From contig JAHRVG010000029.1 of the NCBI GenBank assembly GCA_019090795.1, forward strand, positions 1-64,000: a DNA stretch of 64,000 bases. The letters are read 5' to 3'. A program made the position numbers and the translations under genes. The notes under the pieces are model-generated. The model did not search any database and was not told the origin of the DNA. It saw only the letters and a list, made by a program, of their open reading frames with translations. This stretch comes from Paracoccaceae bacterium. GTDB taxonomy: Bacteria; Pseudomonadota; Alphaproteobacteria; Rhodobacterales; Rhodobacteraceae. Shown here piece by piece: positions 5,939 through 46,348 of this stretch. Position 1 is the first letter of the stretch. Each line of letters begins with the position of its first letter.

Positions 5939-6146
5939 TTACTTTCGATTGCGCTTCTGGATCGCTTGGATCGTTTCCTGCAGGGCTTTGGCGTCTCAGC
6001 CGCGTGATCACCCACCAGTGCATTAACCAGTGTGGATTTCCCGACACCGGTCGATCCAATAAAGGAAATTGTCTGCCCCATCTAGCACCAATCCGCAGCT
6101 TCTCTTGCGCGTCGTCACTAAGAGTATTGAGTGCAATCGCGGTCAC
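5939..6146 (-). pseudogene. rsgA: Remnant of RsgA-type ribosome-assembly GTPase
   Basis: Three pieces of one protein can be read in different frames. From 6146 the frame reads VTAIALNTLSDDAQEKL, like the segment before the P-loop in RsgA. A frame change then gives GQTISFIGSTGVGKSTLVNA, the Walker A of RsgA (GSSGVGKSTLVNAL). After about 10 more codons, another frame gives ALQETIQAIQKRNRK and a TAA at 5941-5939, matching the basic C-terminus of the family. The N-terminal domain, the G3 region and the zinc-binding domain are gone. So the gene has a missing 5' part, an internal deletion and at least one frameshift. Confidence 0.75.
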
Positions 6147-6772
6147 TCGAGAACAATGCCGTTGAGATTTTGGTCCCCGGGCAGTTTTGAGCGTTCTAGA
6201 ATAATCTTTGAAATTGCTTGCGAGCGTACGACTTTCAACTTCGCAAAGATCGGAGCGGCGTCACGTTCTTTCATTTGCCCCAGAACCATTACTGCCACTT
6301 CAATATCCAGACTATTCATTATGGCGGCTGCTTCTTTGGGTTTCATGTTGCGATAGATTTCCACAAGCCGTTTAAGGTCATCGCTTTTGGCTTTCTGAGC
6401 GCGAAAAAACAGATCTTCCAGATCTTTCTTCAGGTTGCTCAGGCGCGCTGTATCCTGCTTCAGTTTTTCCTCTGCAAGGCTGACACTTGCCCTGCGCTCT
6501 TCCAGCGAGGCTTTCTGCTTGTTCAGAAGGTCGCGCTCTTCGTTAATCGCCAAGAATATATCCTCTGGCGTTTCACATTGTTGTGGCTTAATCGCGACCA
6601 CTTTGTCTGGTGCCACTTTGGCCGCAAAAACCGGGCTTATGATGTTAAACAAATCCGATCCCTGTTTGTTTTTGTTAACAGTAGTATCGTCAAACAAGGG
6701 GATCACCAGCCTTGCACCACCGGTAATAGCCAAAAGGATCAATAGAGCGCGCAGGGAAATTTTGGGTCTCAC
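6143..6772 (-). CDS. motE: MotE-family flagellar motor chaperone (MgtE N-terminal domain)
   Basis: A 209-residue protein with a membrane/signal segment at about 8-27, a long coiled coil at about 70-140 (NEERDLLNKQKASLEERRAS), and a C-terminal MgtE-N-like helical domain with the family motif MKPKEAAAIMNSLDIEVAVM. In rhizobia MotE is a periplasmic chaperone for the motor protein MotC. No MotC was recognised here; the large exported protein at 40719 is a possible client, which is inference. It overlaps the DUF6468 gene by 4 bp and is last in the fliL-fliM-DUF6468-motE run. Confidence 0.82.
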   Translation of the reverse strand: MRPKISLRALLILLAITGGARLVIPLFDDTTVNKNKQGSDLFNIISPVFAAKVAPDKVVAIKPQQCETPEDIFLAINEERDLLNKQKASLEERRASVSLAEEKLKQDTARLSNLKKDLEDLFFRAQKAKSDDLKRLVEIYRNMKPKEAAAIMNSLDIEVAVMVLGQMKERDAAPIFAKLKVVRSQAISKIILERSKLPGDQNLNGIVLE

Positions 6773-8091: not shown

Positions 8092-8667
8092 TCATTGAAC
8101 TATAATATCTGCAATAAGCACCTCTTGGGGCGCATCGCTTTCTGTGACAGCGCGTGCTCGACGCAGAAGTTCGGACTTGAGCCTGACGACACCTATGGAG
8201 CCACTCAGGTCCCTCTCGGTCAGTTGCCGTAAATAGTGTTGAAACGCATCTCTGATATAGACCTCACGCTCGGCTACGTGGCTCGCTCCCTCGATTTTTT
8301 CGTCATAGACCAGCGCAAGGTTCAGCTTTAAAAAGCGGCTGCTTTTGCGCCCAGTTTCGGTGATCGAAACGATATTGACGATCATCTCTTTTAGGGGTGA
8401 GACGACCAGTGTGGCGTCAGCAGTTTCATGCTCCGGTTCCATTTCTGTCTCGGCGTGTTTTGATTCCACCTCGGATTCCTCACCGGTTTCTTCTTCACCA
8501 CTACCAACTATCATAGAAAGCACTTTGTCCGGACCCATGGACAGCACCAAACCACCTGCCATTGCAGTCAAGCTCAGGATCACTGCCAGAACCAAAAAAG
8601 GCCACTTTCGTGATGGCTTCTTTTCAGAAGCATTAACGGGCATCACTTCACTGTTTTTGTTAGACAT
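8092..8667 (-). CDS. fliL: Flagellar basal body protein FliL (copy 1)
   Basis: A 191-residue protein with one membrane helix at about 23-44 (WPFLVLAVILSLTAMAGGLV), an acidic Glu/His-rich linker (about 57-82), and the periplasmic FliL domain (VVSPLKEMIVNIVSITETGR, then LRQLTERDLSGSIGVVRLKS). FliL surrounds the stators and supports torque. It heads the fliL-fliM-DUF6468-motE operon, divergent from fliF. A second, more divergent FliL-like gene is at 45827. Confidence 0.88.
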   Translation of the reverse strand: MSNKNSEVMPVNASEKKPSRKWPFLVLAVILSLTAMAGGLVLSMGPDKVLSMIVGSGEEETGEESEVESKHAETEMEPEHETADATLVVSPLKEMIVNIVSITETGRKSSRFLKLNLALVYDEKIEGASHVAEREVYIRDAFQHYLRQLTERDLSGSIGVVRLKSELLRRARAVTESDAPQEVLIADIIVQ

Positions 8668-16374: not shown

Positions 16375-17340
16375 TTAGGTTGGGTCAGGGTAGAGTAAGA
16401 GAATTCCGATGCGTCGGTTTTCCGGCGCTTTCGGGAATTCTTTGTTAAGCAACCGTTTTTCCGCGAAACCCGAAACGCGTCTGATTCTCGTAGGGTTTGT
16501 TCCTGAAGCGATCATTATGCGCCGGGTTGCATTTGCACGATCTGTCGACAAATCCCAGTTGTCATAACCGGTCTGGTGAGAGAAGGGTGCCGCATCCGTG
16601 TGGCCGGAAATTTCAATTGGATAGGGTAAATCCATTATGGCCTGAGAAATGGCTTGAATAACTTCTCGCGTATTGGGTTGAACTTTTGCACTGCCGGTAT
16701 GGAACATTGCCCGGCCTTTATGATCCACCATTTGAACCAACAGACCATCAGGCGCAATTTCAAATGTCAAATTTTTACTAAGGTCAGCAATTTTTGAATC
16801 GGCTGTAATGGAGCTTTCTATCTGTTCGCGGACAGCATCTAGAAGGTCTTCCCGCTCCTCCCTTTTGTTTAATAACTCTTCGGCATGGGCCAGGGTTTCC
16901 ATGTTTCCAACGGTTTCGGCTTTGCCCGCTTGTGTGGCGCCTTCAACCGGTGCTACTTCGTATTCCACGACCACTTCCGGCTTTGACTCTTTCAGTCGAC
17001 TATCAAATCTTGCCAAGGGGTTTTCCCGGCCAAAATTTGGCATGCTACCCACATTGTTTTCACCGGTTGAACCGCCGAGGATGCCATCTTTCCCCAGAAC
17101 CTGCCCTTGCAACAACCCCTGACCTCGCCCACCCGATTGGGAAAGGCTGGGGGTGAAATAGTCAGCCAAACCGCGCTTTGCTTTTTCGTCCGAGGCCGCC
17201 AAGATCCACATTAACAGAAAAAAGGCCATCATAGCCGTCATGAAATCGGCATAGGCGACTTTCCAAGCACCGCCATGGTGCCCTCCATGGCCATCGCCGT
17301 CAACTTTCTTGATAATAATGACGTTGTTCTTGTCGGCCAT
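16375..17340 (-). CDS. motB: Flagellar stator protein MotB
   Basis: A 321-residue protein with the MotB N-terminal membrane helix AYADFMTAMMAFFLLMWILA; Asp32 in ADFMTAMMA is the proton-carrying residue. A plug and linker of about 150 residues follow, then the OmpA-like peptidoglycan-binding domain (IEISGHTDAAP; NWDLSTDRANATRRIMIASG; RRVSGFAEK). The His/Gly-rich stretch GDGHGGHHGGAWK precedes the helix, as in other alphaproteobacteria. Its partner motA is 1.4 kb away at 18713, with three genes between. Confidence 0.96.
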   Translation of the reverse strand: MADKNNVIIIKKVDGDGHGGHHGGAWKVAYADFMTAMMAFFLLMWILAASDEKAKRGLADYFTPSLSQSGGRGQGLLQGQVLGKDGILGGSTGENNVGSMPNFGRENPLARFDSRLKESKPEVVVEYEVAPVEGATQAGKAETVGNMETLAHAEELLNKREEREDLLDAVREQIESSITADSKIADLSKNLTFEIAPDGLLVQMVDHKGRAMFHTGSAKVQPNTREVIQAISQAIMDLPYPIEISGHTDAAPFSHQTGYDNWDLSTDRANATRRIMIASGTNPTRIRRVSGFAEKRLLNKEFPKAPENRRIGILLLYPDPT

Positions 17341-18437: not shown

Positions 18438-18716
18438 TCAATGGCCCTTTGCTTTTTTTGCTGCCGCCTCAACGCCGGAATCATCAAGTTTGACCCCCAT
18501 CACGCTCATCAGTTCCGTTCTCATCTTTTCCAGGATCTTGGCCGAGAGGGCGTTCCGTGGGCCAGGGCGGGAAACAGCATATGGCTGGCCTTCCAGTTCA
18601 GCCTCAACCTCGACGTCTTCTTTAACCTCGGATTTCTGAGAAAAGGCAGCGTTGGCGGACAGAATAAACACAAGTGCTGTCAGCCCCAGAGTGCCGCGCT
18701 GCTTTCTAAGGATCAT
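18438..18716 (-). CDS. Small exported protein of unknown function in the motA operon
   Basis: A 92-residue protein with a signal peptide (about 1-26: basic MILRKQRG, hydrophobic LGLTALVFILSANAAFS) and a mature part of about 66 residues that starts acidic (KSEVKEDVEVEAELEG) and ends helical and basic. No family is recognised. It overlaps motA by ATGA and abuts the FliJ-like gene, so translation is coupled to motA. A periplasmic or outer-surface accessory to the stator is plausible. Confidence 0.7.
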   Translation of the reverse strand: MILRKQRGTLGLTALVFILSANAAFSQKSEVKEDVEVEAELEGQPYAVSRPGPRNALSAKILEKMRTELMSVMGVKLDDSGVEAAAKKAKGH

Positions 18717-19579
18717 GCTGCATTAAGTTCCTTTTGTGCAGCTTCCACTTCATAGAAGTCCGGTTGTTTTACACTTGGGATATTTCCCCGACCCATCTCT
18801 ACGCAGATAGCAGGGGGATGATCGGCCACCATAGCGACAAAAATATCCCGGATGATCGTGTAAAAAGTTCCCTCTTCATCTACAATTTGGCCAAGCCTTA
18901 CCGCTATCGGTGCCACCATACAGTAAGCCAGAAACACACCCAAAAAGGTACCAACAAGAGCGCCCCCGATCATGCCGCCCAAAATTTCAGGGGGTTGGTC
19001 GATTGAACCCATCGTCTTAATCACACCCAAAACCGCGGCAACAATTCCGATTGCGGGCAGGCCATCAGCCATCCCCGTCAAGGCATCCACAGGGCCCATT
19101 GACTCGTGATGATGTTTTTTGATCTTTCTGTTGATGACATCTTCGGTTTCGTATTTGTCATCGAACTGCATCGCTAACATACGAAAACTGTCAGTGATCA
19201 GCTCCGGTGCGAAATGATCCTTCAGAATTTTTGGGTACCGCTGGAAGACGGCGCTCTCTTTAGGGTTTTCGATATGCTCATCAAGGCCCAAAATCCCGTC
19301 TGCCTTATAAATTCGCGTCAGTTCATACATCAGTTTCAACAAATCACTATAGTCGGCAGTCTTCCACTTCGGGCCTTTGATGACTGTCAAAATGCCTTTA
19401 CCAGCGCCCAATACAACTGCGAACGAGTTGGCAACCACCAGAGAGCCAATAGACGCCCCCCCAATCATCATGCCCTCGTAGGGCAGCGCGTGCAAAACGA
19501 CCCCCATGCTGCCGCCCGACAAGACAAAACCGCCAAAGACCAGACTGAAGACCATTATTAGCCCAATTGCAAACGACAT
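18713..19579 (-). CDS. motA: Flagellar stator protein MotA
   Basis: A 288-residue protein with four membrane helices and the MotA hallmarks MMIGGASIGSLVVANS, the charged cytoplasmic loop with ESMGPVDALTGMADGLPAIG, and LGVIKTMGSIDQPPEILGGM. It forms the stator channel with MotB and pushes FliG. It is the first gene of a minus-strand run, motA, small exported protein, FliJ-like gene. Three candidate operator copies lie in the gap upstream. Confidence 0.96.
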   Translation of the reverse strand: MSFAIGLIMVFSLVFGGFVLSGGSMGVVLHALPYEGMMIGGASIGSLVVANSFAVVLGAGKGILTVIKGPKWKTADYSDLLKLMYELTRIYKADGILGLDEHIENPKESAVFQRYPKILKDHFAPELITDSFRMLAMQFDDKYETEDVINRKIKKHHHESMGPVDALTGMADGLPAIGIVAAVLGVIKTMGSIDQPPEILGGMIGGALVGTFLGVFLAYCMVAPIAVRLGQIVDEEGTFYTIIRDIFVAMVADHPPAICVEMGRGNIPSVKQPDFYEVEAAQKELNAA

Positions 19580-19600: not shown

Positions 19601-19677
19601 TTATTCTTGCTAATTAATATAAGCACAATTGACAAATAGTCAAAGGTAAATAAGAATAAGGTGATAACTATTCTTGC
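19601..19677. promoter_or_regulatory. Cluster of three candidate flagellar operators between motA and the glycosylation operon
   Basis: TTATTCTTGC at 19601-19610 (plus), CTTATTCTTA at 19651-19660 (minus) and CTATTCTTGC at 19668-19677 (plus) lie within 77 bp of the divergent gap. The last ends 4 bases before the ATG at 19682, which favours that start over a GTG at 19661, since that would place the site inside the gene. Confidence 0.6.
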
Positions 19678-19681
19678 AGAG

Positions 19682-20653
19682 ATGAAAGATGTCATGAATA
19701 ACCTAAAGACCTTTATCTATTTTGTGGAACCCGAAGTTATTGAAGGGGTTTTGTCCGGCTGGCCGCAAGAGATGAGGTTGGCGCTGTGTCTGTATAAAAG
19801 CGGCCGGTGCGAAATCATGATGTTTCACTGCAGGGAGGGGCAAGGCATCATCAAGAGAATGCGGGACATCCTGAAGCTTGAGGAGGGAAGTTTTGGAGTT
19901 GTTCCTGAAACACGGGGCTATCCGACGAAGGCAATCCGGTTTTCCGATCAGCAACATTTTCTAAAACTGATGATGGAGAAAGAGGATCTTTGTGAAATTG
20001 CTTCCGACTATGCGATTAACTATCGTTTTGCGGAGGAGGAGGGGCTGGATCCGAATTACTTTACTAATCGTTCCTACAAAGGCAAAAAACCTACGAGTAA
20101 TCCAGTTGCCAAGGCCAACCTGTGTGCCAAGCCATTTGTGTCTCGAAGGTCGAAACCCAAGGCGCCACCAACGCTGGGCAAGGGGGGCAAAAGCCAACAT
20201 ATTACCAACTTTATCTCTGGTGGAAAAACACAATACAGGGGAAATTTTGCTGAAGTTGCACGGATCGAGAAAAATGGTCGGAACATTTTGTTAACACTAA
20301 ACCCCGATACGGCATTGAGTAACCTGCCGACCTTGCGGGCTTCCGGCATCATTCACATCGAGGAATTTAACCAGTTTCTGCTCGAGCGCCCATTGCTGGA
20401 AAAATGGAAGGCGGGGCAGTCCGCAGTCATTCAAATGCCGATTGACCAACTGTTCAGCAAGTTCCCGTCCGATTATTTTGATACTCCCCGCCTCGCGGTA
20501 GTGATGATTGTACCCAAGGATATTTTTGTGACTTGTGGCCCCGAAATTCCATCTGAGGAGGCTGATCTGGACGCAGTTCATCCGGCAAATTATTCCTTAC
20601 AGTCAAAGGGTGCTCAGGTAGTGAACTTTAGGGATACCCAAAAGTGGCAGTGA
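19682..20653 (+). CDS. Unrecognised protein heading a putative glycosylation operon
   Basis: A 323-residue soluble protein with no signal peptide or membrane helix. It has an N-terminal mixed region (about 1-120), a basic low-complexity linker (about 130-175, with FVSRRSKPKAPPTLGKGGKS), and a C-terminal region of about 140 residues (FAEVARIEKNGRNILLTLNP; IIHIEEFNQFLLERPLLEKW). I do not recognise the family. Its stop overlaps the start of the next gene (TGATG), so it is translationally coupled to the glycosyltransferase-methyltransferase. A role in choosing or modifying the substrate is a guess from position. Confidence 0.7.
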   Translation: MKDVMNNLKTFIYFVEPEVIEGVLSGWPQEMRLALCLYKSGRCEIMMFHCREGQGIIKRMRDILKLEEGSFGVVPETRGYPTKAIRFSDQQHFLKLMMEKEDLCEIASDYAINYRFAEEEGLDPNYFTNRSYKGKKPTSNPVAKANLCAKPFVSRRSKPKAPPTLGKGGKSQHITNFISGGKTQYRGNFAEVARIEKNGRNILLTLNPDTALSNLPTLRASGIIHIEEFNQFLLERPLLEKWKAGQSAVIQMPIDQLFSKFPSDYFDTPRLAVVMIVPKDIFVTCGPEIPSEEADLDAVHPANYSLQSKGAQVVNFRDTQKWQ

Positions 20654-21993
20654 TGAAATGCGCAATCATAACGTCGGTGGGGCCGGGGCATGAACAGTTG
20701 TTACAAGACAGTTGCCGCCCCTCGGTAGAGGCCGCAAGGGGCTACAGTGCTGGTCCCTTTCAGACAATTAAACACATAGTTATGGATGATACCAAAGGCC
20801 TCTATGGGCGCTCCAAGCGCCGTAATGAGGCCATCCAAATGGCTGTGTCGGACGGGTTTGACTGGGTATTTTTTCTGGATGCCGATGATGTGTTGACGCC
20901 CAATGCCTTTGAGGGGTTTGGGCGCTGTATTGAGGCTGAGCCCGAACTGGATGCCGTTTGGGGTTTGATCTGTGAGTTCGACGGCGATGAAGAACCTATT
21001 TTGAGGCCCGGTCAACCGGAGCAAATGAACAGTCGGCAAGACCTATTGGCCACGGAACCCTTCTTGGCAATTCAGATCGGGGCCTTTATGCGCACAGAAT
21101 GTGTTGCGCGTTTTGGGTTTGACGAAAGCATGAATACGGGTGAGGATTTCAAGCTCTACTATCAGTTATGGGCAAATTGTTCTTGCGCAAAACGGCCGGA
21201 AATATTTTTCGTTAACCGCAGGGGCGTCCACAGTACAGGCCCGCGTTCAGCTACTGGCAAAGATTGGCAAGACAGTGTCAGTGCGCAATGGGCGGAACAA
21301 ATAGCGCAAACGCCATTGTGGATGACGGTAAAGTCGGGGGGTGAAGATGCGGAAATGCTGGTTAACAACCCAAACGACATCATCCAGAGGGCGTATTTAA
21401 GGGGGCAGTTTTTCGAGGCAGATTCTCTCGCAAAACTACATGGCCTGATCAAGAACCCGGCGCCCCGTATTCTGGAGGTTGGTGCAAATATCGGTAACCA
21501 CGTCGTTTGGTATGCTCGAAACCTGAATGCCGAACGTATTTATCCGGTTGAGCCCAATCCGCTGGCGCTCGATATTTTAAGGGAAAATGTTCAAGCAAAT
21601 AATCTGAACGGGTGCATTGACGAGCGTGGGATGGGATTTGGTGCTGGGAAAACCTCTGGCCGGTTTCGGGTGGAAACTGATGATGCAGATAACCTCGGTG
21701 CAACGCGGTTGGTTGCGGATCAGGCTGGTGAAATTGATGTGAAAACGCTCGATGCGCTTATGGGCAGCGACAAAGTTGATTTTATCAAGATTGATGCTGA
21801 AGGTATGGAGTTGGATGTTCTGGAGGGGGCCGCGGCCCTGATTGCGCGGGACAAGCCAGTTATTTGGGTTGAAGTTCTGCGCAACAACCTGCTGGGATTT
21901 GCCCAGAATTGGTGCCGTAAAGCGGGTTATCAAATTGTTGATAGTACGCCATATTTGAACACAATAGACTATTTCGCCGTTCCGAGGGATTGA
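20653..21993 (+). CDS. Fused GT2-type glycosyltransferase and FkbM-family methyltransferase
   Basis: The first ~220 residues resemble a family 2 glycosyltransferase: KCAIITSVGPG start, RSKRRNEAIQMAVSDGFDWV, and the DxD-type nucleotide-sugar/metal site FFLDADDVLTP (Asp76, Asp78). The last ~180 are an FkbM-type SAM-dependent O-methyltransferase: ILEVGANIGNHVVWYARNLN at about 273 (SAM loop) and DFIKIDAEGMELDVLEGA at about 376. The pairing suggests a sugar is attached and then O-methylated by one polypeptide. ATG 20653 overlaps the upstream stop. Between stator and filament genes, the likeliest target is flagellin; that is inference. Confidence 0.82.
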   Translation: MKCAIITSVGPGHEQLLQDSCRPSVEAARGYSAGPFQTIKHIVMDDTKGLYGRSKRRNEAIQMAVSDGFDWVFFLDADDVLTPNAFEGFGRCIEAEPELDAVWGLICEFDGDEEPILRPGQPEQMNSRQDLLATEPFLAIQIGAFMRTECVARFGFDESMNTGEDFKLYYQLWANCSCAKRPEIFFVNRRGVHSTGPRSATGKDWQDSVSAQWAEQIAQTPLWMTVKSGGEDAEMLVNNPNDIIQRAYLRGQFFEADSLAKLHGLIKNPAPRILEVGANIGNHVVWYARNLNAERIYPVEPNPLALDILRENVQANNLNGCIDERGMGFGAGKTSGRFRVETDDADNLGATRLVADQAGEIDVKTLDALMGSDKVDFIKIDAEGMELDVLEGAAALIARDKPVIWVEVLRNNLLGFAQNWCRKAGYQIVDSTPYLNTIDYFAVPRD

Positions 21994-21994
21994 T

Positions 21995-23851
21995 ATGCAA
22001 ACGATAACAATGTCACGGAAAGACCGCCGCCGTCGCGAAGCTAAGGCTGCTAAACTCTATGGTGTTTCGGGTGAAAAAGCCCTGATTGTTCATCAGGCGT
22101 ATAATGCGCTGTTTCATAAACAACTTGAAAAAGTGGTAGAACTGATCGGGCCTATTTCGCGCAGTGATCCAACCAACAAACACCCCTGGATCATTCTGGG
22201 TGGTACTGCTCTGGAAAAAATAGAGGGTAAGACCGCGAAGGTGTTTTTTGAACAAGCCCATGCCATAGCGCCAAACGATCCGGTTGTTCTGGGCGGAATG
22301 GCAAAGGCACATGTGCTAGAGGCAGAAGTTGAGCCCGCTACACTGCTTATGGAAAAGGCATTTGCTGCAGGCAACGACGACAAAGGCTTGGTTAATTTAT
22401 ATATTGAACTGATGGCCCGCCTCGGGCGCAGCCTGAAGGCCGTTGATGTGGTTAGCCGCGTGGTTGGAAAGTTGAACGACGCGGGGCTAAGTTATCGGCT
22501 GGCAATCGTACTTACCGATGCTGATGAAACCAACGCCGCAGCGTTTTGGTTTCATCGCGCCTATCAGTTGGAACCGGAAAAAGAGGAACATCAAATCGGG
22601 CGCTTGCGCGGCCTGATGTTTTCGCGAAAGTTTGAAGAAGTTGAGAAAGAAGCGCCGAGCCTTTTAGAAACGGTTAAAAACCGTGATGAGGTGATGACAA
22701 TCTATCTTATGGCGCTGCGGCTTCTTGGAAAATACGACATTGTCACCGATTATTGCGATACTTTCGAGTTTTCGGATATCAAGGCCTTTGCGCTTGCCCG
22801 TGGCCTGATGGCAAACGTCTATCAGGATCTGGGGCAATGGGACCGGGCCGAGCCTGCCTATTTGGAAGCGATGCACATTGCTGGTGAGCCAGGTAAAATC
22901 TCCAAGGCGCTTGGGGTTTATAAGTATCGCGAAAGGGAAATAGGGGATGGATTCAGGTATTATTCTGACAGATTTCCAGCCCAAAACCGCAAACATATCC
23001 CACTGGAAAATGCCGCACCGGAGAATTTGAAAAACCTTTCGCGTATTCACTTGATGGGAGAGCAAGGCATCGGCGATCAGCTAGCCTTGCTCAGTCTGCT
23101 ACGCACCGCACCTATTGATCTTGAAAAAACCGAGGTTATTTACGTTAGCGATGAGAGGTTTGACCCGGTTTTGCAAAATAACTTGTTGTCGATTGATTTT
23201 CTATCTCAAGACCGTTTTTTCAACGAACCTCGCTCATTGCAGTCAAATGAACTGGTTTATTTGGGTGATCTGTCCCAATATCTTGACAATACTGATCCGG
23301 CAACGATTCAAGGTGCCTATCTGGTTGCCAATGAAAACCGGGTTGCGCATCTGAAGAAGAAATATCAGGAAATGGCGAGTGGACGTCCGATTGTTGGTGT
23401 TGCCTGGAACAGCGCAAGCCTGATCGGGCATATGCGATCTTTGCCTTTGACCGAAATACTGACGACCATTCAACAAGAGGCGCTGGTCATCAATTTGCAG
23501 TATAACGCAAGTGCTGCGGAGATTCAGGCCGCCAGCAAAATCCGGCCTGATCTTGAATTTTTTGACGACAAAGAAGTAAATCAAATGACGGATCTTGGTG
23601 GTTTTGTCGCCCAGATCGCGACGTTGGACCGGGTGGTTACAATTGACAACACGACCGCGCATTTTTGCGGTGCACTGGGCCATCCCGATACACATGTTTT
23701 GATCCCGATTGGTTCGGAATGTATGTGGTATTGGGGGCGAAACGGAGGTTTAGATCCATGGTATGGAAACCTGCATTTACACCGCCAAACACAGCTGCGG
23801 GATTGGGCCAAACCAATAGAATCAGTGCGCCAGTATAGCTATGATTCGTAG
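21995..23851 (+). CDS. TPR-repeat glycosyltransferase
   Basis: A 618-residue protein. The N-terminal half (about 25-300) is a run of TPR-like helix pairs (WIILGGTALEKIEGKTAKVF; AEPAYLEAMHIAGEPG). The C-terminal part (about 345-618) resembles GT-B glycosyltransferases of the heptosyltransferase/O-GlcNAc-transferase type: GEQGIGDQLALLSLLR near 355 and RVVTIDNTTAHFCGALGHPD near 550. TPR-glycosyltransferases of this layout O-glycosylate proteins such as flagellins and adhesins. It begins 1 bp after the preceding stop, so the three genes form an operon. Confidence 0.78.
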   Translation: MQTITMSRKDRRRREAKAAKLYGVSGEKALIVHQAYNALFHKQLEKVVELIGPISRSDPTNKHPWIILGGTALEKIEGKTAKVFFEQAHAIAPNDPVVLGGMAKAHVLEAEVEPATLLMEKAFAAGNDDKGLVNLYIELMARLGRSLKAVDVVSRVVGKLNDAGLSYRLAIVLTDADETNAAAFWFHRAYQLEPEKEEHQIGRLRGLMFSRKFEEVEKEAPSLLETVKNRDEVMTIYLMALRLLGKYDIVTDYCDTFEFSDIKAFALARGLMANVYQDLGQWDRAEPAYLEAMHIAGEPGKISKALGVYKYREREIGDGFRYYSDRFPAQNRKHIPLENAAPENLKNLSRIHLMGEQGIGDQLALLSLLRTAPIDLEKTEVIYVSDERFDPVLQNNLLSIDFLSQDRFFNEPRSLQSNELVYLGDLSQYLDNTDPATIQGAYLVANENRVAHLKKKYQEMASGRPIVGVAWNSASLIGHMRSLPLTEILTTIQQEALVINLQYNASAAEIQAASKIRPDLEFFDDKEVNQMTDLGGFVAQIATLDRVVTIDNTTAHFCGALGHPDTHVLIPIGSECMWYWGRNGGLDPWYGNLHLHRQTQLRDWAKPIESVRQYSYDS

Positions 23852-39311: not shown

Positions 39312-40616
39312 TTAGCGTTTCAATCGTGTGGTTTCGTCAAGCATCTCGTCTGTTGTGGTTATGATTTTTGCATTCGTTGAATAAGCGCGCTGGATGCGGA
39401 TGAGATCCGTAAGCTCTTGTGCGATTTCAACATTGGAACTCTCCAGAACCCCGTTAGATATTGTTCCCACACCACCTTCTCCTGCAAAGGACAAGAGTGC
39501 CGCCCCAGAGAAGCGCGTTGTGCTGAAGTTGTTACCAGTGCTGGCTTCCAGTCCGACAGGATTGGTTACATTCGCCAGTGGGATGTTGAAAAGAGGTTTA
39601 CGGTTGCCATTGTCATACAGGCCGAAAATATTTCCTTTATCATCAATTTCAGTCGACAGTAAATTACCGGAGGCGGCTCCATCGGCAACGACTTCTACTG
39701 GCGTATAGTCACCTGAAAACTGGGTCATTCCATCAAAACTGTTCGGGGCTCCTGCTGCAACGGTCAGAACTTGTGGAGTTGTACCATTGTCGACCGTGAG
39801 TGTTGCGATGCCGGTTGTAACATCAAATGCAAATGCTGCCGGAGCAGGAGCCGTACTGGTCACGCCGGAATAGGTCGCGGGTGATCCCGCATTCGCGCCA
39901 CTGTCATTGAATTCAACGTTGACAGACCCATAAGTGGCGCCATCGGCCCCCTCAAATGTCAGCTCCCAAGTGTTTTCGGTTGATGAAGGTTGCCATGAAA
40001 ATTTCAATCGACTGGCCTCGCCCAAGGGAGAGAAAAACTCGGCAGAGGATGAAAAAGGATCACCCGGCGTTGGCAGACCTGCTTCTTGTGATGGCAAGTT
40101 CCCTGCAACTGAAATTGCAGTGGTCGGAGAACCGGGAGTTAATCCAGTATCGACGTTTACAGTGGTCAGCTCTGAAAAGTTGTTTGCGTCTACAGCACCC
40201 AAAGTACTGTCTTCACCATAGGCAAAGCCTGCTAGGTAAAACCCGGCAGCATTGCGCAAATCACCGTTGGCATCAGGCAGGAAAGAGCCTGCACGCGTCA
40301 ACATATAGTTGGCTACATTTGGGTCGTTCGGCGTCTTGGAAACCACAAAGAAACCATCCCCTCTAACTGCCATATCGGTAGAGGAGCCAGTGCCAAATAC
40401 CTCTGTGCCTCTTGACATGTCCAGAGCCGAAACAGCGCGCACACTATTTGTTACCGAGGTTTTAATATTGCCGGAAGTTGACGTTACCATTTGGGTAAAA
40501 GTTCGTCGAAATGCGTTTGTATTGGCGTTCGCGATGTTGTCCGAAATATTGCCGATTGCAGTTGCATTTGCCAACAACCCGCTGACACCTGTTTGCATTG
40601 CATTAGTGATGCTCAT
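39312..40616 (-). CDS. flgE: Flagellar hook protein FlgE
   Basis: A 434-residue protein with the rod/hook N-terminal motif (GVSGLLANATAIGNISDNIA, then NANTNAFRR) and C-terminal LTDLIRIQRAYSTNAKIITT. The central hook domain includes GTGSSTDMAVRGDGFFVVSK, as expected for FlgE. Polymerises under FlgD capping with length set by FliK. Likely first gene of flgE-flgK-flgL; a TATTCTTG site lies 77 bp upstream. Confidence 0.95.
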   Translation of the reverse strand: MSITNAMQTGVSGLLANATAIGNISDNIANANTNAFRRTFTQMVTSTSGNIKTSVTNSVRAVSALDMSRGTEVFGTGSSTDMAVRGDGFFVVSKTPNDPNVANYMLTRAGSFLPDANGDLRNAAGFYLAGFAYGEDSTLGAVDANNFSELTTVNVDTGLTPGSPTTAISVAGNLPSQEAGLPTPGDPFSSSAEFFSPLGEASRLKFSWQPSSTENTWELTFEGADGATYGSVNVEFNDSGANAGSPATYSGVTSTAPAPAAFAFDVTTGIATLTVDNGTTPQVLTVAAGAPNSFDGMTQFSGDYTPVEVVADGAASGNLLSTEIDDKGNIFGLYDNGNRKPLFNIPLANVTNPVGLEASTGNNFSTTRFSGAALLSFAGEGGVGTISNGVLESSNVEIAQELTDLIRIQRAYSTNAKIITTTDEMLDETTRLKR

Positions 40617-40718: not shown

Positions 40719-42635
40719 TTATTGCGAGGATGTGTTGATGACATTCATTACATCCAGTACGCGGGTCGCGTTCGATAGGTCGTTTGAAATGGCATTTTTC
40801 CGCAAAATACCATCAATTTCGGTTTCTTCAAACAAACCTGCCGCGATTTCGTGCCATTGCGGAACATCAGTTAAATCGGGGAATATTTTCACCAGCTTTG
40901 ACGCCAAATCAGCGTCTTTTTCTCGATATGCAGCCAACAACATGTTCAAGGCTTCTGTAAACCCAAATTGATCGCCTTCTTGTTCCCACAATAAATTGTA
41001 GGTCTCAATTGCGTTTTTCCAATCTGCCACCGAGAAATACGCTTTGGCCTTAATCCGTAAATAGTCGCTGGAAGGTTTAGTTGCCTTACTGGTCAGGATT
41101 GATTGGGAGTCCCCCGTGAGGTTGAATAGCCTGGCTTTCTGGAACGTAAACTCATCTTCGATTTTCGGGTCAGTGCTTTGGGCCCCAAAGGTCAAAATAG
41201 GTATGGCCTCGTCGTATTGTCCACCCCGCAAAAGTGCTTTTACCTGCTTTAGTTTCAACTGGTCCAGATGTTCCAACGTAACTTCAAACAAGCCGAGATC
41301 CTGGGCAACGGACAGATAGTTAAAAGTAGTATCATATTCACGCGCTGCCGCGTTAGAGGCACCAATGGCAAGCAGGCGATCTGCAAATTTTTCTGAATAA
41401 TCCCCGAAACCTTCCTGAAACCGGTAATCGAGTGCGATGCGTTTGTGCCCCAGCATGAACTTCGACACCTCCAATTTGCCCGAGGCGCCCTTCTCATAAT
41501 AGCCTTGTAGCAAAAAGTGCGCCTTTTTCTTGGCAGCCAAGGTTGAGGGTTCATCCAGTTTTATGTAAATTAATTCTCCAAGGACTTCCAATGCTGCGGC
41601 TACATCGTCTTGGGCCAGCTCAGCCTCTACCAACCGGTTGAGGGTTCTTTGGGCCAGTGCATCCCCACGCCATGCGAAACGGCTTTGCGCCAGCAGTTCA
41701 CGCACATCTTCTGGTGCCAGTGTTTTGGTTTTTACACCTAATTCAATCAGGGACATACGTGCAAGCTGTGCCCACTGATCGTTCCCTTCGCTTGCCTTTA
41801 CATAGTTATCAAAAGCAACAAGAAAATCCTCTCCCAATTCCGCAGTCTGACCCAAAAGATATTGATATGCGCTGCTATCCTTTAAGTTCCGGTTTTCTGT
41901 GAAGAGCAAAGCGAACCCTTTGGCGGCCTCCCAATTTTTCAACTTGATCGCCGCTTCGAGCAGTTTTGGAAGCGCCAATTCTTCTATCAGGCCATTTAGG
42001 GCTGCAAGATCTTTTGCGGCATTCACTAAATAGGGCTCAGCGGAATCAACGTTTCCGGTGCGTATAAAGTAAAGTGACCGCAACAAGGCGTGATTGGGCC
42101 AAGCTTCCGGCTCTTCCAAAGCTTTAACCTCTCCTTCGGAGAGCGCCATACCCCACGGGTTCAAAACGTTTGCGGCAATGGAAATCCCCACCTTGCGTGC
42201 CTTCTGCTCTGGCGTGAGTATGGCGGCATCAAGGGCAGACAGGATAGAACGGCTTTCGACTGTCATTGCATTGGACAGATAGAACTCGGCCAGATTAAGG
42301 AGTGCACTGGAATTTTCGTTCGACAACGACAATCCCGTTTTGTTGTCATCTATCGCTTGAATCAGCCGCCGCCGTGTTTCCAAAAACCCTTCTGTGCCAA
42401 TCATTGAAAAATTGATCATGGGCGGCAAAATTATTTCCTGTGGCTGTTCTGGCACATCAGCAAGCAAAGGCGCTACCGGTATTGTGTGTGCTTCCGCCGC
42501 TTCGCGAGTGTGCTCGGAACCAGCAGAAATTTCTGCGTTTCCTTTTATTGAGGGCACAGGCTCGGCCATCACGACCGAAGAGGCCAGCAAAGCGCAACCA
42601 AAGATTACTGGAAATATGAACCGTCTGGTTGGCAA
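40719..42635 (-). CDS. Large exported helical-repeat protein of unknown function in the flagellar locus
   Basis: A 638-residue protein with a signal peptide (about 1-25, ending SSVVMAE), a Pro-rich segment to about 70, then almost wholly alpha-helical repeats with TPR/Sel1-like spacing (LLNLAEFYLSNAMTVESRSI; LPKLLEAAIKLKNWEAAKGF; YFSVADWKNAIETYNLLWEQ). It should lie in the periplasm. I cannot name a family. It sits between flgE and flgF, divergent from flgF. By analogy with periplasmic TPR motor proteins (PflA in Epsilonproteobacteria) and with rhizobial MotC, whose chaperone MotE has a homologue here, it may be a motor or stator scaffold; that is inference. Confidence 0.8.
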   Translation of the reverse strand: MPTRRFIFPVIFGCALLASSVVMAEPVPSIKGNAEISAGSEHTREAAEAHTIPVAPLLADVPEQPQEIILPPMINFSMIGTEGFLETRRRLIQAIDDNKTGLSLSNENSSALLNLAEFYLSNAMTVESRSILSALDAAILTPEQKARKVGISIAANVLNPWGMALSEGEVKALEEPEAWPNHALLRSLYFIRTGNVDSAEPYLVNAAKDLAALNGLIEELALPKLLEAAIKLKNWEAAKGFALLFTENRNLKDSSAYQYLLGQTAELGEDFLVAFDNYVKASEGNDQWAQLARMSLIELGVKTKTLAPEDVRELLAQSRFAWRGDALAQRTLNRLVEAELAQDDVAAALEVLGELIYIKLDEPSTLAAKKKAHFLLQGYYEKGASGKLEVSKFMLGHKRIALDYRFQEGFGDYSEKFADRLLAIGASNAAAREYDTTFNYLSVAQDLGLFEVTLEHLDQLKLKQVKALLRGGQYDEAIPILTFGAQSTDPKIEDEFTFQKARLFNLTGDSQSILTSKATKPSSDYLRIKAKAYFSVADWKNAIETYNLLWEQEGDQFGFTEALNMLLAAYREKDADLASKLVKIFPDLTDVPQWHEIAAGLFEETEIDGILRKNAISNDLSNATRVLDVMNVINTSSQ

Positions 42636-42700
42636 ATTGACCTCTATTTTTGATAGTTAGTATTTATACTTGATTTATATTAAAAATAAAGCCAGAATGT

Positions 42701-42710
42701 ACAAGAATAA
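42701..42710 (-). promoter_or_regulatory. Candidate flagellar operator (TTATTCTTGT)
   Basis: It carries the TATTCTTG core on the minus strand in the 117-bp divergent gap between the 638-residue gene and flgF, 43 bp before the flgF start and 66 bp before the other. Confidence 0.5.
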
Positions 42711-42752
42711 AATAATATAACCATGATTAATCTTACATGGTAGAGGAGTATC

Positions 42753-43490
42753 ATGGAGAGTTCCACACCAGTAACCCTATCCCTTACTTCCGTGTTGAAG
42801 CGCAATCTGGATCTGACCGCGAATAATATTGCCAACGCAAATACGGCAGGTTTCAAGGGCGAGCGCATGTCTTTTGATTCCTATGTGGTCAAATCGGGCG
42901 GAAGCGAGACCTCATTTGTTATAGACCAAGGCTCCTTTCTTGATAGCAGGCAAGGCTCAGTGGAATACACGGGCAACGCGCTTGATCTAGCCCTGCAAGG
43001 GGTCGGCTGGTTTTCCTACAGAACACCCGAAGGGGAAATTTCCTATGGCCGCAACGGGCAGTTTCATGTGGATTCCGTGGGAAACCTTGTCACTTTAAAT
43101 GGGGATAAAGTATTGGATGACGGCGGTGGCGAAATTGCTTTCCCACCCGATACGGCCAGTTCTGCCATCATATCTGCCGACGGTTCAATTTCCGCGCCGG
43201 ACGTTGGAACAATAGCCAAAATCGGAGTGTTTACCCTGCCAGATTTGCAATCCTATGAACGCATTGGCGCTGGTCGCTTTGTGCCCCCTGCTGGACAAGC
43301 GTCACAGGCCTACATCGACGACTCCACACGGGTCATGCAGGGCGCGCTAGAGGGCAGCAACGTACAGCCCATACTTGAAATGTCACGGCTCATCGACATT
43401 CAACGGGCCTATGAAAGATCCACCAAACTCATGGATGGCGCAGACGAACTGCGCCGCAAGGCTTTGCAACAAATTGGTCGCCCAGCGTAA
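42753..43490 (+). CDS. flgF: Flagellar proximal rod protein FlgF
   Basis: A 245-residue rod protein with NLDLTANNIANANTAGFKGE near the N-terminus, GNALDLALQGVGWFSYRTPE in the middle and EMSRLIDIQRAYERSTKLMD at the end. Shorter than FlgG and FlgE, as usual. First gene of flgF-flgG-flgA-flgH, with AGAGGAG ahead of the ATG. Confidence 0.94.
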   Translation: MESSTPVTLSLTSVLKRNLDLTANNIANANTAGFKGERMSFDSYVVKSGGSETSFVIDQGSFLDSRQGSVEYTGNALDLALQGVGWFSYRTPEGEISYGRNGQFHVDSVGNLVTLNGDKVLDDGGGEIAFPPDTASSAIISADGSISAPDVGTIAKIGVFTLPDLQSYERIGAGRFVPPAGQASQAYIDDSTRVMQGALEGSNVQPILEMSRLIDIQRAYERSTKLMDGADELRRKALQQIGRPA

Positions 43491-45826: not shown

Positions 45827-46348
45827 ATGAAAAAAGTAATAAGTATTCTTGTTGTACTGCAAGTAGTCTTCCTGATCTTGGGATATGGCGTGGGAACTTT
45901 CTTGGGAACCGCGGACCATGCTGAAAAGATCAGTTCGTCAAACAATGAAGATTCCCATGGATCAGCGACTGTCTCCGATAACCATTCCGGAGACAGTGCG
46001 GATCATAACGGAGAGGCTGACAAAAAACCAATTGTTGTCAAACTCGGTCAAATGCTCATCCCCGTCTACAAGCCCCGTAGCGTTAGTTATGTAGTGATAA
46101 ACTTGGGCATATCTGTAGATAATTTGGATACAGCAGAGCACTATAACATTGGTGAGAACGGCGTAAGGTTGAGAGATGCCATCTTTGCTTCGCTCAAGAA
46201 AACCGCCGACGGTCGGGCAATGCGCGGAGCAGTTATAGATACTGAGAATATATCGAAATCCATTACCGAAGGTGTTCAACAGAAGTTTGCCGGAATTAAT
46301 GACGTGCTTTTCCTCGACTTCTACAAAAAAGACATCGCGCGCAGCTAA
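45827..46348 (+). CDS. FliL-like protein (copy 2)
   Basis: A 173-residue protein with an N-terminal membrane helix (about 3-24, ISILVVLQVVFLILGYGVGT), an acidic Asp/Ser/His-rich linker (about 32-67), and a periplasmic domain with the FliL pattern (KPRSVSYVVINLGISVDNLD, then LRDAIFASLKKTADGRAM and QQKFAGINDVLFLDFYKKDI). It is more divergent than the gene at 8092. It lies at the end of the flgF-flgG-flgA-flgH run and is followed by a terminator. A TATTCTTG word (45844-45851) falls inside its first codons. Confidence 0.7.
   Translation: MKKVISILVVLQVVFLILGYGVGTFLGTADHAEKISSSNNEDSHGSATVSDNHSGDSADHNGEADKKPIVVKLGQMLIPVYKPRSVSYVVINLGISVDNLDTAEHYNIGENGVRLRDAIFASLKKTADGRAMRGAVIDTENISKSITEGVQQKFAGINDVLFLDFYKKDIARS

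Follow-up and report, generated by a model that had tools for sequence, protein, structure and literature searches.

What is the function of the large open reading frame that separates flgF from flgE in this Rhodobacteraceae flagellar locus? The gene, which we refer to as Q, lies in a window of 64,000 nucleotides (the whole stretch of DNA that was analyzed), occupies positions 40719..42635 of the minus strand with its stop codon included, and encodes 638 amino acids from a TTG start. The original prediction, which named no strand, described its product as an exported protein built almost entirely of helical repeats, and our observations agree with that description. The opposite (plus) strand of the same interval carries stops throughout, and a ribosome-binding site, AGAGGT, ends four bases 5' of the TTG codon. 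By inspection and a crude hydropathy analysis, the N-terminus of Q (MPTRRFIFPVIFGCALLASSVVMA, followed by EP) is basic and then hydrophobic, ends in a V-M-A site, and resembles a Sec signal, so that residues 1-24 (42564..42635, minus strand) constitute a putative signal peptide. Past the N-terminus, hydropathy reveals no segment that looks membrane-spanning, the highest 19-residue mean being 1.08. Pfam yields sub-threshold TPR matches only (best E 0.0014). A 17-row AlphaFold2 model of Q (mean pLDDT 82) is helical from residue 84 to residue 635 and contains no strand at all, and residues 1-66 are modeled with a pLDDT below 50. Together with the profile co-linearity described below, these helices delimit a repeat domain that spans residues 60-626 (40758..42458, minus strand).

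The locus in the window is a fla2-type Rhodobacterales flagellar cluster. Pfam and NCBIfam scans identified fliK, flgD, flagellin genes, flgI, motE, fliM, fliL, fliF, fliN, fliP, fliG, flaF, flbT, motB, mucR, motA, fliI, flgB, flgC, fliE, flhA, fliR, flhB, a flgL-like gene, flgK, flgE, flgF, flgG, flgA, and flgH. This gene content, and the local orders flgF-Q-flgE-flgK, fliL-fliM-x-motE, and motB-mucR, are as in Marinovum algicola pMaD5, the fla2-type reference described by Tomasch et al. in 2025 (PMC12363192). The same scans confirmed the neighbors that had been predicted for Q, which is divergent from flgF (42753..43490, plus strand) and is followed on its own strand by flgE (39312..40616, minus strand). 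The stator genes lie farther away, motA (18713..19579, minus strand; the single MotA match in the window's genome) at 21 kb and motB (16375..17340, minus strand; identified by domain scan) at 23 kb. The gene for the E-ring protein homolog MotE (6143..6772, minus strand) is 34 kb from Q and was recognized through a sub-threshold Pfam MgtE_N match and an NCBIfam FlbB collar match (E 1e-8, under the cut-off). MotE and MotB are the predicted partners of Q.

Three other features of the cluster were observed along the way. A gene after flgH (45827-46348, plus strand) is a second, weak FliL-like gene (Pfam FliL E 0.042; the clear fliL is at 8092-8667), and the gene at its position is annotated as FliL family in Roseivivax and as hypothetical in other fla2 clusters. 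A 330-aa protein with no Pfam match is encoded divergently from motA (19661-20653, plus strand), and a gene of about the same size points away from motA in the opened fla2 clusters of Salipiger, Marinovum, Loktanella, and Roseivivax. An FkbM methyltransferase/glycosyltransferase gene and a TPR-glycosyltransferase gene lie inside the cluster at 20644-23851 (plus strand), perhaps for flagellin modification; the pair is present in Salipiger abyssi, and the annotations of Marinovum, Loktanella, and Roseivivax do not show it beside motA.

Q and flgF are separated by a common intergenic region of 117 bp (42636..42752) that contains an inverted pair of elements, CTTGATTTATATTA at 42669 on the plus strand and CTGGCTTTATTTTT at 42695 on the minus strand. 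It had been proposed that the two genes share a flagellar-type operator. This holds only in part: the left half of the pair was recognized by eye in 7 of 10 other intergenic regions viewed, yet when at most one mismatch is allowed it is carried by just one of 19 other intergenic regions in the window that measure 60 bp or more, and the evidence falls short of an operator that serves the cluster as a whole. The window contains no exact CtrA-type site (TTAA-N7-TTAA).

The position of Q is constant among its close relatives. A tblastn search with Q returned 19 plasmid records (11 from Sulfitobacter, two each from Salipiger, Alloyangia, and Loktanella, and one each from Marinovum and Roseivivax), of which the loci in 11 were inspected. 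A profile search matched 17 of 295 genomes of the family, and after four with E values of 7e-5 to 7e-4 were dropped, clear members remained in 13, the window's genome counted; a scan of genome contigs with the single Q protein returned no relative. In all 27 loci inspected, Q is flanked by flgF and flgE, one on either side; this set comprises the opened plasmid records, the family members, and three same-genus genomes, the window included. Two distant homologs of Q, with 27% identity, also lie between flgF and flgE. In Roseivivax marinus TCYB24 (positions 19704-21555 of locus L014) Q appears as two overlapping open reading frames, and in one other genome it is in two pieces; these splits reflect either decay or sequencing error.

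To which known proteins is Q related? In the published fliL-pflI-motE-motA-motK operon, the gene after motA is motK (PMC10954123). Twenty other Rhodobacteraceae motA loci were examined, of which 14 have a clean open reading frame of 666-810 aa 3' of motA, and the MotK alignment was made without the six loci that lack a clean frame. In a one-sequence search, the post-motA open reading frames of Cereibacter ovatus, C. johrii, and Luteovulum azotoformans match this MotK family with E values of 2e-128 or lower. A profile comparison of the Q family with the MotK family gave E 1.7e-12 over 421 columns (1.2e-9 in an earlier run with 12 rows), while controls consisting of reversed sequences, BamD, a CycH-like TPR protein, FlhA, FliF, and FlgK gave E values of 0.006-0.66. 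The two distant Q homologs by themselves matched MotK with E only 2.8e-5. The gene that follows motA in Phaeobacter inhibens encodes CP4, and CP4 mutants are reported to be immotile (PMC12363192); by position, CP4 is MotK. In three fla1-type loci, motA and MotK follow flgK-x-flgI rather than motE, so MotK, too, is separable from motE.

A second line of evidence comes from more distant genomes. The Q profile matched 86 of 210 alphaproteobacterial genomes, or 85 of 209 without that of the window, and the matches lie mostly in open reading frames of about 930-1480 aa, with 8 of the 85 outside that range. MotE was located by a separate search, two genomes with weak MotE matches were left out, and the best Q match in each genome was used. 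Sixty-three of the 85 distant matches lie on the same strand as MotE and no more than 12 kb downstream of it, with a median gap of 3.5 kb; if genomes of 3.3 Mb are assumed, about 0.1 of the 65 same-contig cases would be expected near MotE by chance. For the remaining 22, position gives no link to MotE (16 lie on a different contig, four are in genomes with no MotE match, and two are far away). Thus, with the 27 close loci at flgF and flgE and these 63 downstream of motE, we did not find that homologs of Q routinely occur outside flagellar loci. Caulobacter CC_2058 occupies the same motE-adjacent position, next to CC_2059 (PMC10954123, PMC13023049), and is also known as fssB (PMC7885107). The motE-adjacent family is tied to CC_2058/FssB by gene position, the sequences compared being those of other alphaproteobacteria. 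At four of the 21 motE-adjacent loci mapped, an open reading frame resembling the window's MotB (blastp E 1e-10 to 7e-8) stands directly before the large motE-adjacent protein.

A profile was made from 20 of these 21 loci, one being left out for want of a clean frame. Q matches this profile with E 1.1e-39 over 555 columns, a value that is not an independent test since the 20 proteins had been selected by means of the Q profile. The independent tests are the adjacency to MotE, the comparison of MotK with the motE-adjacent family, and the reciprocal search. MotK matches the motE-adjacent family with E 3.2e-28, and three Cereibacter-group MotKs do so with E 4.3e-8, compared with 7e-6 for BamD, 2e-4 for CycH, 0.0012 for MotC, and 0.13-0.16 for the reversed controls. 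Earlier accounts linked MotK to CC_2058 through fold and gene order (PMC10954123, PMC13023049); this comparison adds evidence at the level of sequence for homology between MotK and the motE-adjacent proteins at the CC_2058 position. When the motE-adjacent profile was searched against the window's genome at E of 0.001 or less, the sole match was Q (8.6e-26). The same profile recovers Q in 12 of the 13 genomes that have it and MotK in four of five genomes that have MotK only, missing one genome in each set.

Realignment places residues 60-626 of Q against columns 581-1141 of the 1158 columns of the motE-adjacent profile, and residues 277-684 of MotK against columns 580-1052. Q therefore starts where the N-terminal part and linker of the larger proteins end. 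The repeat domain of the CC_2058/FssB-position proteins is co-linear with the whole repeat domain of Q, which has about half to two thirds of their length and lacks their N-terminal 580 or so columns; moreover, their genes lie downstream of motE, whereas Q is remote from it.

We consider it likely, with a probability of roughly 0.8, that Q is the MotE-partner spoke of the fla2-type motor, a homolog of the MotK/FssB-family repeat domain that has been reduced to the superhelix. MotK and MotE are reported to be required for rotation of the flagellum and not for formation of filaments, and MotK binds both MotE and MotB2 (PMC10954123). Likewise, deletion of fssB leaves the filaments in place and makes the cells nonmotile, much like motB mutants (PMC7885107). 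Since Q is a relative of these proteins, which are needed for rotation, it is probably a stator-supporting spoke of the fla2-type flagellum. The original prediction of a periplasmic TPR scaffold that works with MotE and the stators thus gains support from profile homology, and on sequence grounds such a motor-scaffold role is probable. The part of that prediction that made Q an unrelated new component does not stand, because Q belongs to the known MotK/FssB kind. In Campylobacter jejuni, the MotE homolog FlgY forms the E-ring and the spokes consist of PflA; stator density is missing from pflA mutants (PMC11870540, PMC13023049). By homology, Q would take the position of a motor spoke and bridge the MotE ring and MotB, which would let the stators engage; a cell without Q would be expected to assemble a flagellum that does not turn, which is to say that it would be paralyzed.

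The constant place of Q between flgF and flgE in all of the close loci, and the divergent promoter region that it has in common with flgF, would also be accounted for if Q were a periplasmic factor for assembly of the rod or hook, a chaperone or checkpoint for FlgF or FlgE that happens to have TPR-like repeats. The P. inhibens CP4 mutant, which is reported to export fewer flagellar proteins, the set being reduced (PMC12363192), points the same way. However, homologs in other lineages adjoin motE or motA rather than flgE, and the published mutants of those homologs build filaments that they cannot rotate (PMC10954123, PMC7885107). We regard an assembly factor as improbable.

Helical repeats can also resemble one another by convergence, in which case Q would be an unrelated TPR-like protein and its homology to the MotK/FssB family spurious. 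TPR proteins do give background cross matches, as seen for BamD against the motE-adjacent family and against MotK (E 0.0013), and the comparison of Q with the three Cereibacter-group MotKs alone is not significant (E 0.027). Against this stand E values of 1e-12 to 1e-39 that extend across most of the repeat domain, the placement of 63 of 65 same-contig distant matches near MotE, and a reciprocal search that returned a single match from a genome in which other TPR proteins are also encoded. A generic TPR artifact is unlikely given how much weaker the reversed, BamD, and CycH controls are, and spurious homology as a whole seems to us very improbable.

Structure comparisons bear on the kinship of the spoke proteins. 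The best Foldseek match of the Q model in the PDB is 9hmf_K, a chain of the C. jejuni flagellar periplasmic scaffold (E 9.6e-6, TM 0.25), and unrelated TPR chains follow closely at 1.2e-5. The MotK model also has 9hmf_K as its best match (E 4.4e-5, TM 0.17; next 3.6e-4). To judge from its length, chain K would be PflA, and MotK and CC_2058 have been called PflA-like (PMC13023049). This joint match is suggestive only of a kinship with the C. jejuni scaffold: the TM-score of Q to 9hmf_K is just 0.25, PflA has an AMIN domain whereas Q has none, generic TPR proteins lead a VIA-align search with the Q model, in which the C. jejuni entry is absent from the best 50 rows, and PDB sequence searches with Q return generic TPR or weak matches.

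The original prediction had noted a MotE chaperone at the locus and no recognized MotC, and this holds. A search of the window's genome with a MotC profile, run without a positive control, returned nothing, and the NCBIfam MotC models do not match Q at E of 1 or less, although one of them finds genuine MotC well over its cut-off. MotC of Sinorhizobium meliloti, the rhizobial MotE client, is like Q in general character, being periplasmic, rich in TPRs, free of an AMIN domain, and a partner of MotE (PMC13023049); yet a MotC-type identity for Q is scarcely credible, and orthology is rejected, since no sequence relation was found (profile E 0.075 for Q and 0.51 for MotK) and, in the loci viewed, MotC genes directly follow motB, which Q does not.

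If Q is the spoke of the fla2-type motor, then that spoke lacks an AMIN-like part. MotK of Cereibacter sphaeroides shares with Q an export-type N-terminus, a homologous repeat domain, and a flagellar cluster that encodes MotE, but it also has an AMIN-like beta-sandwich and a gene placed directly after motA, and Q has neither. In the MotK model (mean pLDDT 72), strands occupy residues 24-119 and helices follow. Pfam AMIN models barely register in MotK (best 0.099), so the AMIN label of MotK rests on the published account and the model. An AMIN-like N-terminal domain is absent from Q, as judged from its length and from its model, which has no strands and begins its repeats near residue 84. The single Pfam AMIN match in the window's genome is on another contig. 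Binding to peptidoglycan or to the cage has been ascribed to the AMIN domain, and in the case of Q such a contact with the wall or cage would be either absent or otherwise supplied. We give about even odds to the idea that the fla2-type spokes lost AMIN and that a MotE ring with its spokes needs no anchorage of its own to the wall in order to recruit stators. Were this so, Q would be a minimal spoke, carried on plasmids together with a whole flagellum, and a natural test of what AMIN does; with the AMIN-like part gone, the role of that domain can be put directly to the test. A likely MotE partner of the fla2-type flagella can now be named. A literature search, which covered articles without their supplementary tables, found no published identification of Q in fla2 clusters, and the word "hypothetical" is absent from the Marinovum sedimenti paper.

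Q and MotK differ greatly in how widely they occur. MotK matches were found in 197 of the 295 family genomes and Q in 13. Three genomes have both, on different contigs, and the other 10 Q genomes have no MotK match, a tendency toward mutual exclusion with a Fisher p of 0.0013 over the 295 genomes. This distribution fits two types of cluster, and functional replacement of one protein by the other need not follow from it. A 2025 survey counted 284 flagellar clusters in Rhodobacterales; 43 are of fla2 type, and plasmids carry 21 of these (PMC12363192). The C. sphaeroides cluster that encodes MotK is called fla2 in its own description (PMC10954123) and is fla1-type in the Rhodobacterales naming. 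The proteins CP1-4 have been described as exclusive to fla1 (PMC12363192), a statement that needs qualifying, given that CP4, judged by its position, is MotK and that fla2 has a homologous repeat domain.
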